NCBI RefSeq assembly: GCF_034479555.1
Contig: NZ_CP140151.1
Span: 3,472,001 to 3,536,000 of the forward strand
Reading direction: 5' to 3'
Source: Chromohalobacter canadensis
GTDB taxonomy: Bacteria > Pseudomonadota > Gammaproteobacteria > Pseudomonadales > Halomonadaceae
DNA: 64,000 nucleotides
Made by a program: the position numbers and the translations under genes. The notes below the pieces were generated by a model that saw only the letters and a list, made by a program, of their open reading frames with translations, had not been told where the DNA came from and made no database searches. This document shows positions 38,824 to 51,417 of this stretch, piece after piece. Each line of letters begins with the position of its first letter. Position 1 is the stretch's first letter.

Positions 38824-38831
38824 ATTTTTTT
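38824..38831. repeat. Target-site duplication, left copy
   Basis: ATTTTTTT directly abuts the outer left inverted repeat and is identical to the 8 bases directly after the right inverted repeat (51410-51417). ISL3 elements make 8-bp duplications. Confidence 0.8.
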
Positions 38832-38853
38832 GGGTATCCGGATTAAGTGGTTG
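38832..38853 (+). repeat. Outer left terminal inverted repeat
   Basis: Starts GGGTATCCGGATTA then AGTGGTTG. Matches the reverse complement of the right end at 20 of 22 positions and the inner left end at 46268 at 21 of 22. Confidence 0.85.
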
Positions 38854-38879
38854 ATGGGCCTTCCAGCCCCATCCAACCC

Positions 38880-39695
38880 TTAGTCCTTCCAGAAGGTTGA
38901 TAGATCGACACCGAAGTTCTTCTCAGGCTCGGGGAGTCCCATGTTGTAGGTCATGGTGGCTCTGCCCAGAAACGGGGATTCCTTGACTTGTGGCGCCTTC
39001 TTCTTGTGCTTGGTGGTATAGAGCATCCGGGCTCGCATTACCTCGAACGAATAGCCCCGGCCATCACGGTTTTTGTCCTTGGCTAGGCGGTTTATCGACT
39101 ACGTGAAAGCGTTGGTGATCGGGATGTCGGTCTCAAAGTAGGTCAGCATCTCTTCACGCCAGCCACTGACGGCGCTGACGAGATCCTTCCAAACCTCCTT
39201 CTGCCCCTGAGGGATGTTGTCAATCCAGGTGGCGAGAGCCTGTTCGGCACCACGCCGATTGGTACAGTCCCAGATATGGTAGAAGCGCTCCTTGTGCTCG
39301 TAAGCCGCCAAGAGCTGGGGGGAATGCTCCTGTCCAGGTCTCCATGATGAGCCGTTCGCGGTCTGAAACGTCGTGAGCGCGCTTCAGCAGGATTTTCCGG
39401 TCACCTTTGAGGGTCCGGCGCTGATTGGGCTTCAACTCCTTCCTTAGGCCTTTGCGGATCTTCTCTAAGGCCTCGTTGGCCATGCGCACGACGTGGAACT
39501 TATCGACCACGATACGGGCCTGTGGCAGCACCGTCTGGAAGGCGCGGCGGTAGGGCTTCCACATGTCCATGCTGACGATCTCGACCTGGTGGCGGTTGGC
39601 CATGCTCATGAGGCGTCTTGTCACCCTCTCTTGCTGACGACCGGGTAGCAGGTCCAGCAGGGTGCGCTCTTCCAGATTGGTTAGGATGCAGCAGA
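38880..39695 (-). pseudogene. Decayed ISL3 transposase, 5' truncated
   Basis: This sequence aligns along its length with the intact transposase gene at 46316 (same order from the C-terminal DLSTFWKS end inwards) but is broken in three ways. A GAG codon has become TAG (around 39099, at the Glu of NAFTESINRL). One extra G in a run near 39323 shifts the frame. Homology stops near 39695, so about 165 N-terminal residues are missing. It cannot make an active enzyme; movement would depend on the intact copy. The junction to lspA (39696-39818) contains no recognisable gene. Confidence 0.88.
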
Positions 39696-39818
39696 GCCCT
39701 TGGCAGCAGTCGTGCATCAGGAACGTACAGCTGGCTCATGAAGGCGTGCCGCCTTATCAAGGCCCAGGACGCGCCTATTCCGGAAGTCAAGCATGCGATA
39801 GCGAAGACGCTAGGCGAT

Positions 39819-40340
39819 TCAGCGGCGGCGGCTGCCTGGTTGATGTCGTATTTCCGCCCAAATAAAGAGGGCGACACCGAGGAAGATCCATACGTCCGCT
39901 AGGTTGAACGATGGCCAGTGCCACTGGGCATAGTGAAAATCGAGAAAATCCTCTACGTAGCCTAACCGCAAGCGATCTGCGACATTGCCCAACGCGCCGC
40001 CGAGGATCGCACTGAGGGCGAGCCGATAACTCAGTACGCGTGGTGAACGCCAAAGCCAGTACACCAGTAATATCGAGATAACCAGGGCCAGTCCGATGAA
40101 AAGCGGCTGCTGCCAACCGCCGACATCCGCGAGAAAGCTGAAGGCCGCCCCCGTATTGTGGCGGTGGACCCAATTGAAGAAGGGTGCGGCAGGCACGCTT
40201 TCACCATGCGCTAGCATGGTGCTGGCAAGGTACTTGCTCGCCTGATCGACAAACAGTAACAGGAGCGAGAGCCACAGCCAGCGCATCGCCTTTCCCGGCT
40301 CGTGGGCTTTCTCTGCGAGCCGACTGCCATAAGTAGACAT
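39819..40340 (-). CDS. lspA: Lipoprotein signal peptidase (signal peptidase II)
   Basis: Inner-membrane aspartic protease of 173 residues that cleaves prolipoprotein signal peptides before the lipidated Cys. Four hydrophobic segments; motifs VDQASKYL, HNTGAAFSF, GGALGNVADRLRLGYVEDFLDFH and PSFNLADV, the last two carrying the catalytic Asp pair. ATG at 40340 has a strong GGAGGAAGG upstream. It is a cargo gene of the transposon, next to lnt. LspA-like proteins accompany lead and cadmium resistance genes (PbrC, ISPpu12), but the link to metal tolerance is inference here. Confidence 0.93.
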   Translation of the reverse strand: MSTYGSRLAEKAHEPGKAMRWLWLSLLLLFVDQASKYLASTMLAHGESVPAAPFFNWVHRHNTGAAFSFLADVGGWQQPLFIGLALVISILLVYWLWRSPRVLSYRLALSAILGGALGNVADRLRLGYVEDFLDFHYAQWHWPSFNLADVWIFLGVALFIWAEIRHQPGSRRR

Positions 40341-40393
40341 ATCCCCTTCCTCCTGACCCAATCTAGAATTTGCTCGCTGCTAAATAACAAGCG

Positions 40394-49209: not shown

Positions 49210-49455
49210 GTGAAAGATTCGCAGAAATTTATAAGCGTCGTGCTTGGCACCGGGTTGATGGTGCTGTGTTGCGCCGGGCCAATCGCCCTGGTGCTATTCG
49301 GTACGGCGGGCCTGGCCGCGTTGGCAGGCTATCTCGATTACCTGCTGTTTGCCGTCCTGGCCATCGTCATCGGCTTACCTCTCTACGCGCGATACCACAA
49401 GCGGAAGCAGGATGCCGGCTTTACTAATGAAGACTCGGAGAAACGTGATGATTGA
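49210..49455 (+). CDS. Second MerF-like protein
   Basis: Two-helix membrane protein of 81 residues, starting with GTG at 49210 (GAAGGAAT upstream). [38 protein letters not shown] is parallel to MerF, including the first Cys pair, but the C-terminal Cys pair is absent ([18 protein letters not shown]). It may therefore accept Hg(II) but pass it on in a different way. Its end overlaps merA by eight bases, so the two are translationally coupled. Confidence 0.82.
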
Positions 49456-51097
49456 ACTCAACGTGAGCGGCATGACCTGTGACCGCTGTGCGGATCATGT
49501 CAGGGAAGCCTTGGAGAAGCTGCCCGGCGTGCAGTCGGTGGAGGTATCCTATCCTCAGAGGACGGCATCGGTAGCCGTTGATCCGGGGACACCGGCCTCG
49601 GCGTTGACGTTTGCCGTGACCCGACTTGGCTACCAAGCTCGACTGGCCAACAGTGGGCCCACTTCCCCGGCAGGCGCATCGGTGTCCAAGGGCCGTGATG
49701 AAGACGCCCCGCACATCGCGGTGATCGGCAGCGGCGGCGCCGCCATGGCGGCGGCCCTGAAGGCCGCCGAGCGCGGCGCCCGGATCACCCTGATCGAACG
49801 CGGCACCGTCGGCGGTACCTGTGTCAATACAGGCTGTGTGCCTTCGAAGATCATGATTCGCGCGGCCCATATTGCCCACTTGCGTACGGAAAGTCCCTTC
49901 GATGCAGGCCTGAGCGCCCAGGCGCCGGTGGTGGATCGGGCCAAGCTGCTCGAGCAGCAGCAGCGACGTGTCGAGGAACTGCGTGACGCCAAGTACGAGG
50001 GGATTCTGCGCGACCACCCGGCCATCACTGTCCTGCACGGCGAGGCCCGGTTTATCGATGCCCATAGCCTGATGGTCAAGCTGAACGAGGGCGGCGAGCA
50101 GGTCGTCCACTTCGACCGCGCCTTCATCGGTACTGGCGCCCGACCGGCAGTACCGCCGATCCCGGGTCTTGCCGACACCCCCTACCTGACCTCTACCAGT
50201 GCTCTGGCCCTGGACACTCTTCCCGAGCGGCTGATTGTGATCGGCGCCTCGGTGGTGGCCCTGGAACTGGCCCAGGCCTTCGCCAGGCTGGGCAGCCGGG
50301 TCACGGTGCTGGCCCGCAGCCGCCTGCTCTCCCAGGAAGACCCGGCGGTAGGGGATGCGGTGGAGGCGGCGTTTCGCCGCGAGGGCATCGAGGTCCTCAA
50401 GCAGACCCAGGCGAGCCGTGTGGACTACACCGACAATGAATTCATTGTCGACACCAACGCCGGCACCTTGCGGGCGGATCAACTGCTGGTGGCCACCGGA
50501 CGGACACCCAATACCGAGGCCCTGAACCTGGCGAGCCTCGGCGTGGAAACCGCACATGGGGCTATTCTGGTCGATGAGCATCTGCACACCACGGTGCCGG
50601 GGCTCTATGCCGCCGGTGACTGCACCGATCAGCCGGAGTTCGTCTATGTCGCCGCCGCCGGGGGCAGCCGGGCTGCCGTCAACATGACCGGGGGCGAAGC
50701 CACCCTGGACCTGAGCGCCATGCCGGCGGTGATCTTCACCGACCCCCAGGTGGCCACCGTCGGCCTGACGGAAGCCGAGGCCATCGAGCAAGGCTTCAGC
50801 GTCGATACCCGTGAGCTGGACCTGGAAAACGTGCCGCGTGCGCTGGTGAATTTCGACACCGGTGGTTTCATCAAGCTGGTGGCCGAACGCGACTCGGGCC
50901 GGTTGCTGGGGGTGCAGGCGGTGGCGGGGGAAGCCGGTGAGCTGATCCAGACGGCGGTGATGGCGCTACGCGCACGCATGACCGTACACGACATCGCCAA
51001 TGAGCTGTTTCCCTACCTGACCATGGTGGAAGGGCTCAAGCTCTGTGCCCAGACTTTCACCAAGGATGTGACGCAGTTGTCCTGCTGTGCCGGGTGA
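49448..51097 (+). CDS. merA: Mercuric reductase MerA
   Basis: Cytoplasmic flavoprotein of 549 residues that reduces Hg(II) to Hg(0) with NADPH. N-terminal heavy-metal domain with GMTCDRC (Cys11, Cys14), FAD site [16 protein letters not shown], redox-active Cys125/Cys130 in [18 protein letters not shown]-site [17 protein letters not shown], and the C-terminal vicinal Cys546-Cys547 that deliver Hg(II). All catalytic residues are present. The ATG at 49448 follows the coupled MerF-like gene; a longer frame from 49349 is out of frame with that gene but overlaps it fully and was rejected. Confidence 0.96.
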
Positions 51098-51178
51098 ACG
51101 ATATGAGCGCGACCGTGGTGCCACTGGGCGGCGGCACCACGGGTTTTGGGCATGGACACCACAGGGAGCCCTGTCACG

Positions 51179-51313
51179 ATGAACACGACACTACCAGATT
51201 GCGGGATGATGGGGGCGATGGGCTGGATAATGCCAGTGATCGGAATTGCCCTACTATTGCTACTGGTCCTGGGCATCGCCTGTTTGGTGAAGTATCTGCT
51301 CTCTAGCAAGTGA
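51179..51313 (+). CDS. Small single-span membrane protein after merA
   Basis: Predicted protein of 44 residues: MNTTLPDCGMMGAMGWIMP followed by one hydrophobic helix (VIGIALLLLLVLGIACLVKYLL) and SSK. AGGGAG lies about ten bases before the ATG; an in-frame ATG at 51152 would add nine residues. Small Cys/Met-containing membrane peptides of this kind accompany copper and mercury loci, and Cys8 with the Met-rich start could bind metal. Function not known. It is the last gene before the transposon right end. Confidence 0.6.
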   Translation: MNTTLPDCGMMGAMGWIMPVIGIALLLLLVLGIACLVKYLLSSK

Positions 51314-51387
51314 GCGTACTCAGCGAGCCATCAACCAGCTAATCCGTTGTGGGTTGAGTTTGTCGGCCACCTTTCGCTCTCGCATAC

Positions 51388-51409
51388 CAACCAGATAATC
51401 CGGATACCC
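51388..51409 (-). repeat. Right terminal inverted repeat
   Basis: Read on the minus strand it starts GGGTATCCGGATTA then TCTGGTTG. It matches the outer left end at 20 of 22 positions. It is the only right end seen for both left ends. Confidence 0.85.
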
Positions 51410-51417
51410 ATTTTTTT
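51410..51417. repeat. Target-site duplication, right copy
   Basis: ATTTTTTT, identical to 38824-38831. Removing the element and one copy restores an AT-rich intergenic region between the Fe-alcohol dehydrogenase and tctC genes. Confidence 0.8.

Follow-up and report, generated by a model that had tools for sequence, protein, structure and literature searches.

The transposon analysed here occupies positions 38832–51409 of a 64,000-nucleotide stretch of the Chromohalobacter canadensis genome (positions 3,472,001 to 3,536,000 of contig NZ_CP140151.1; hereafter the window) and belongs to the ISL3 family, whose closest described members are ISPpu12 and ISPpu12a. These 3,372-bp elements carry a transposase gene (tnpA), lspA, a CDF gene and tnpR, which encodes a MerR-type regulator. 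The TnpR of an ISPpu12 isoform reportedly regulates ISL3 transposition. ISPpu12a has been described as resembling non-composite transposons (PMC4133298), and its CZC module conferred no resistance on the tested strains (PMC4447125). Circular transposition intermediates are stated for ISL3 members, including ISPst9 (PMC3812183). Compound forms are also on record. In DEH, the dehalogenase transposon of Pseudomonas sp. PP3, two almost identical ISPpu12 copies flank the mobilised DNA (PMC12060670), and a putative ISL3 pseudo-compound transposon, with no experimental proof of transposition, surrounds liaSR in Enterococcus faecium (PMC9484755). Plasmid pZM3H1 of Halomonas sp. ZM3 carries mer genes and czcD as part of a truncated Tn3-family transposon, in a paper whose text does not contain the term ISL3 (PMC3606827). 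PMC12056078 mentions ISL3 in passing, and PMC10871549 lists ISPpu12 beside resistance cassettes.

For ISPpu12, comparisons were made with the copy on Leclercia plasmid pLEC-5e18 (L010), where the transposase carries the annotation ISPpu12 family. The unit in the window resembles it in its ends, its 8-bp duplication and the gene order near its left end, with protein identities of 75.5% for TnpA, 88.6% for the CDF protein and 80.6% for the regulator. The ISPpu12-group order of tnpA, lspA, CDF gene and MerR-type regulator gene is found in the left part of the unit; however, lnt and a ZIP transporter gene stand between lspA and the CDF gene, LspA has diverged (51.8% identity) and this tnpA is dead. 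Further unlike ISPpu12, the unit contains ccdA, a peroxiredoxin gene and another ISL3 element, which carries mer genes. It shares with DEH the design of a compound ISL3 transposon in which ISPpu12-group elements mobilise the intervening DNA, but its two elements differ from one another (86% DNA identity in tnpA), one is dead and without its right end, and each brings metal genes of its own (PMC12060670). As in E. faecium, two ISL3 copies of the same orientation surround host genes; for the unit, however, sequence comparison shows target duplications at each of three sites as well as an empty one (PMC9484755). pZM3H1 also unites mer and czcD in Halomonas, whereas its transposon is of the Tn3 family and carries merB, merD and merE (PMC3606827). 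What is new is the pairing of a dead ISL3 element with a live, different, cargo-bearing one, ISPpu12 compound transposons being already known from DEH. The original prediction, made from the sequence alone, knew of no described element with this gene set. This stands among the matches listed from openly licensed literature, in which no paper was recognisable as describing the unit, but the unit was already present in public records and DEH is a published precedent.

A complete ISPpu12 copy of 3,372 bp, with the duplication CTAAATTC, also occurs elsewhere in the same genome (L035 6560–9931; G000:C1, ~2.01 Mb). It is base-for-base identical to that on pLEC-5e18.

Ends, target duplications and copies of the unit

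We conclude that 38832–51409 is very probably a compound ISL3 transposon of mixed parentage, made up of a dead element, a live element and captured DNA. Its outer terminal inverted repeats show complementarity at 20 of 22 positions, each with a flush copy of ATTTTTTT on its outer side (38824–38831 and 51410–51417). The unit so bounded is 12,578 bp long and is inserted with tctC on one side and a gene for an iron-containing alcohol dehydrogenase on the other. When the entire window was scanned for inverted pairs matching at 20/22 or better, 2–20 kb apart and with identical flush 8-bp flanks, only this pair was returned; five Markov-1 resamples (n = 5 only) returned none each. With the limit relaxed to 14/22, one pair was again obtained from the window and 0, 1, 1, 0 and 1 from the resamples, so that the quality of the repeats carries the chance test. 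ATTTTTTT is of low complexity and the reality of the duplication is therefore settled by independent copies of the unit. Chance matching of the outer ends is ruled out by these copies, which have their own duplications. The repeats and flush duplication reported in the original prediction were thus borne out at both ends. Its assignment of the 8-bp length to ISL3 also held, the unit having terminal inverted repeats, an ISL3-type DDE transposase and 8-bp duplications in independent copies. A partial second right terminal repeat lies at 51328–51346, some 60 bases in from the right end.

Plasmid pTHAF12_a of Halomonas sp. THAF12 carries this same unit, internal junction included; there ATTATTTT stands on both sides and two IS256-family transposase genes lie inside. 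On pTHAF12_b, the unit is seen from ~base 1,117 onward and its right flank is shared with pTHAF12_a; the record start cuts off the left end. In Modicisalibacter tunisiensis LIT2 (G067), the unit has GGAAATCC on both sides and splits a PQQ dehydrogenase gene, the pieces of which match the PQQ profile at 1–32 and 45–595. The Halomonadaceae metagenome-assembled genome T82-2 (G146) holds a 12,612-bp copy, again with GGAAATCC on both sides, at the same insertion site as in M. tunisiensis (left flank 100% identical over 2,020 bp, right flank 94–97%). Once shared sites are counted once, three insertions are independent, and every one has a perfect duplication of 8 bp; two of these duplications are nearly all A/T and GGAAATCC is half A/T. 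Mismatches to the window in the left, captured and mer blocks numbered 0, 1 and 1 for THAF12, and 0, 0 and 1 for M. tunisiensis. The hosts comprise two genera of one family (that of the window, and that of M. tunisiensis and T82-2) plus the Halomonas sp. THAF12 plasmids.

When the flanks in the window were joined with one copy of the duplication, they aligned uninterrupted in all nine of the other genomes of the genus searched (80–93% identity). Two of the checks proposed with the original prediction, for the unit at other sites and for an empty site, gave positive results.

These data bear on the alternative that two adjacent ISL3 elements have outer ends that match by chance, the mer transposon alone being mobile and the unit having been spread by plasmids or homologous recombination. 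The mer transposon did move alone in Halomonas HAL1 and in genome G090, and the flank common to both THAF12 plasmids indicates that recombination between replicons occurs. However, the perfect duplications flush with the outer ends at three different sites contradict it unless all three assemblies are in error, and together with the uninterrupted site in other genomes of the genus they make this account very improbable. It is further opposed by the bases immediately left of the mer transposon, GTTAAGGC: they do not match those right of 51409, so the mer transposon was not inserted at this site by itself.

Two side observations concern individual copies. The M. tunisiensis copy contains two extra insertions of ~1.1–1.2 kb (L031 2276–3454 and 11315–12417), one of which falls within the intact tnpA, so this copy is probably unable to move by itself. 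Across the lnt–ZIP–CDF part (window 40832–43082), T82-2 diverges while the window, THAF12 and M. tunisiensis agree, and this stretch is likely a mosaic segment swapped by recombination.

Two elements, a captured segment and their proposed assembly

The left element is an ISL3 transposon with a dead tnpA, lspA-lnt-ZIP-CDF-cadR and a lost right end. Its tnpA relic lacks the N-terminal 171 residues and is 88–89% identical in protein to the intact TnpA (tblastn). The relic is base-for-base identical in the four loci compared, namely the window, Stutzerimonas (L006), G085 and G146, so the left element most likely spread after the death of its transposase, helped in trans. The end at 38832 is flush with duplications in THAF12, M. 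tunisiensis, G146 and Stutzerimonas too. Stutzerimonas zhaodongensis A252 has the left element on its own, as a 5,841-bp unit with its own right repeat and the duplication AAAATAAG. In G085, it is followed by ccdA and the peroxiredoxin gene, and the DNA continues unbroken across the junction point toward a tlpA-like gene. The mer unit is absent from this locus, and no right repeat at ≤3 mismatches occurs within the 19.5 kb examined. The captured segment of the window has 0 mismatches to G085 across 1,749 bp.

The right element (46268–51409) is an intact ISL3 mercury transposon of 5,142 bp, whose TnpA matches PF01610 at 4.6e-65 and NF033550 with 302.8 bits against a cut-off of 180. The left terminal repeat is present twice, at 38832 and 46268, with both elements in the same orientation, and the first ~860 bases after each (the tnpA regions) share 86% DNA identity. 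The mer unit is found alone in HAL1, with one mismatch in 5,142 and the duplication GAAAATCA, and in G090, with AAAACAGG (contig orientation); in both, the end equivalent to 46268 is flush with the duplication. In the window, GTTAAGGC is probably the single remaining copy of the mer transposon's own target duplication. A mercury transposon of the Tn3/Tn21 type, with a Tn3-family transposase and 5-bp duplication, was considered and is ruled out by the ISL3 transposase and 8-bp duplication.

The third terminal repeat (46268) and the degenerate second tnpA (38886–39690) had not been reported in the original prediction, which saw one transposon, an enlarged ISPpu12-like element. A 12,578-bp ISL3 unit has indeed moved with these ends, but it is a compound of two elements plus captured DNA, and the internal repeat and the relic contradict a single enlarged element. 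A related possibility, that one non-composite transposon grew by gene capture between fixed ends, would account for the one outer end pair and one duplication. It is scarcely credible given the internal terminal repeat and second tnpA relic, and given that both the left element and the mer transposon are found elsewhere as separate elements with ends of their own.

The unit thus has two elements of the same family bounding shared DNA, jointly used outer ends and one intact transposase, as the internal repeat at 46268, the intact tnpA, the empty site and the three sites with outer duplications show. In a classic composite transposon both flanking elements are complete, although movement is not known to require this. 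Here, the left element is without its right end and its tnpA is dead, so the unit is filed as a mixed or pseudo-compound variant rather than the classic form. On this reading as a compound transposon, two ISL3 transposons and captured DNA also explain the mixed gene set.

The order of events proposed is as follows. A dead ISPpu12-like element would first have lost its right end beside ccdA and the peroxiredoxin gene, after which the mer transposon would have inserted behind the peroxiredoxin gene. As the two elements have near-identical terminal repeats and the same orientation, the intact TnpA could then bring together the dead element's far left end and the right end of its own mer unit, and everything between would move as one 12.58-kb unit, leaving an 8-bp duplication. 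Each step has support from the forms that occur separately. Movement by this unit's own TnpA is, like the order of assembly, what we infer from the comparison of loci.

Homologous recombination between two ISL3 copies, in place of insertion by the mer transposon, might also have formed the unit, as the two tnpA regions share 86% DNA identity and the search for the precursor locus found none (see below). We consider this unlikely, because the join is precisely where the left repeat of the mer transposon begins, whereas a crossover between the two tnpA genes would be expected to place it inside tnpA, and because the same DNA is unbroken across the join point in G085.

Several observations weigh against a compound transposon assembled in this way. 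This history predicts a precursor in which GTTAAGGC follows the mer transposon; at ≤2 mismatches, such a precursor occurred in 0 of 275 family genomes. Four of the six mer-only copies examined (G049, G011, Paracoccus albus and Halomonas PA16-9) are without a duplication, suggesting that such copies are often rearranged or spread by other means. T82-2 has 141 mismatches to the window in the left block, with 0 in the captured and 2 in the mer block, nearly all of its differences falling within ~40.8–43.1 kb. Only three insertions are independent, since M. tunisiensis and T82-2 share a site and the THAF12 plasmids share a right flank. Finally, transposition of the unit is deduced from sequence comparison, none having been observed. 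On balance, the compared loci indicate that the structure is real, has moved and is compound rather than single, with an unusually full record of its assembly.

Distribution, gene content and implications

The exact internal junction was found in two stretches of the genome contig collection (from which the window's own record was possibly excluded) and in 3 of 275 family genomes, own included. In the third of these, G239, it lies on contig C10 at the place expected for T82-2. A 400-base junction query at ≥80% coverage matched 2 of 72,556 plasmid records, both from THAF12. Searching 146 genomes (own included) with the whole element gave a match of some kind in 110. Among the matches listed, many were partial (merA, CDF-cadR, peroxiredoxin; 65–90%) and were not counted as copies; those taken were the compound in the own genome and G067, the left part in G085 and full mer units in G049, G011 and G090, partial mer units in G074 and G064 being left out of the counts. 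Some part of the element matched 460 plasmid records, two of them over ≥80%; seven of the 460 were inspected. The plasmids of HAL1 and PA16-9 contain further such places. In Escherichia coli, 84 of 5,426 genomes matched, none over ≥80% of the mer unit, and the 10 records listed of 88 matched the ISL3 transposase only. The left-end pattern was found in the own genome only (1/369) in a class-wide sample too sparse for inference.

Two mer-only copies have features of their own. In Halomonas PA16-9 (L009 4004–8335) the mer unit is internally deleted, with merF unannotated and a shorter merA. On P. albus p2 (L008 558–9137), an alphaproteobacterial plasmid, the unit has no target duplication and lies near genes annotated as CBASS cGAMP synthase and ThiF-family protein.

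The gene calls within the unit were confirmed by Pfam and NCBIfam (Table 1), in agreement with the cargo of metal efflux, thiol redox, lipoprotein maturation and mercury detoxification genes listed in the original prediction. The CDF protein also has an HMA domain match slightly under the cut-off. From its gene content, the cargo would confer Hg(II) reduction and metal efflux, although the efflux function is not to be assumed, since the CZC module of ISPpu12a gave no resistance.

Table 1 Features of the compound ISL3 unit, in window coordinates.
Feature	Position	Strand	Basis
Left target duplication copy, 8 bp, ATTTTTTT	38824..38831	.	
Outer left terminal inverted repeat (IRL), from dead left ISL3 element	38832..38853	+	
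tnpA relic, residues ~172-439 only, two frames	38886..39690	-	tblastn
lspA, signal peptidase II	39819..40361	-	Pfam/NCBIfam profiles
lnt, apolipoprotein N-acyltransferase	40394..41956	-	Pfam/NCBIfam profiles
ZIP-family metal transporter	42126..42887	-	profile match
CDF cation efflux protein, start codon uncertain	42998..43918	-	profile match
MerR-type regulator, CadR/PbrR equivalog	43993..44427	+	profile match
Captured segment, 1749 bp, between broken right side of left element and mer transposon	44519..46267	.	
ccdA/DsbD-TM family thiol redox membrane protein	44585..45307	-	Pfam/NCBIfam
1-Cys type peroxiredoxin	45526..46161	+	Pfam/NCBIfam
GTTAAGGC, immediately left of mer transposon	46260..46267	.	
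Internal terminal repeat, left end of mer transposon (third terminal repeat copy)	46268..46287	+	
Intact ISL3 tnpA, 440 codons	46316..47638	-	Pfam/NCBIfam
merR	47696..48142	-	Pfam/NCBIfam
merT	48216..48566	+	profile match
merP	48580..48876	+	profile match
merF, copy 1	48873..49136	+	profile match
merF, copy 2	49210..49455	+	profile match
merA, mercuric reductase with HMA domain	49448..51097	+	Pfam/NCBIfam
Small ORF, "hypothetical protein" in HAL1 annotation	51179..51313	+	position transferred from L007
Outer right terminal inverted repeat (IRR), right end of mer transposon	51388..51409	-	
Right target duplication copy, 8 bp, ATTTTTTT	51410..51417	.	

Taken together, these loci form a natural record of compound transposon formation. 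They include the dead element both by itself and joined to captured genes, the live mercury element on its own, the fused unit at three locations and the site without it; just one stage, the intermediate with a freshly inserted mer unit, is missing. This suggests that dead ISL3 elements with intact ends stay raw material for related transposases. It also opens two points to direct testing, namely whether ISL3 relatives have compatible ends and whether the metal-sensing regulator exerts control. The unit couples predicted mercury reduction with predicted metal efflux. A wider idea, which we put forward as rather doubtful, is that shared-end assembly operates across the ISPpu12 group, with a single live transposase building larger transposons from dead cargo units, captured genes and cargo of its own, and that the CadR/TnpR-like regulator may tie metal exposure to movement of the mer genes.

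Within the captured segment, a weak match to the left terminal repeat (12/14) lies at 45470–45483, before the peroxiredoxin gene, and may be due to chance. Relatives of the captured ccdA-peroxiredoxin pair also occur in L061 (G063), and a metal-gene cluster in L059 (3780–15459; G042) contains relatives of the pair together with CDF-cadR and mer genes, at 75–88% identity.

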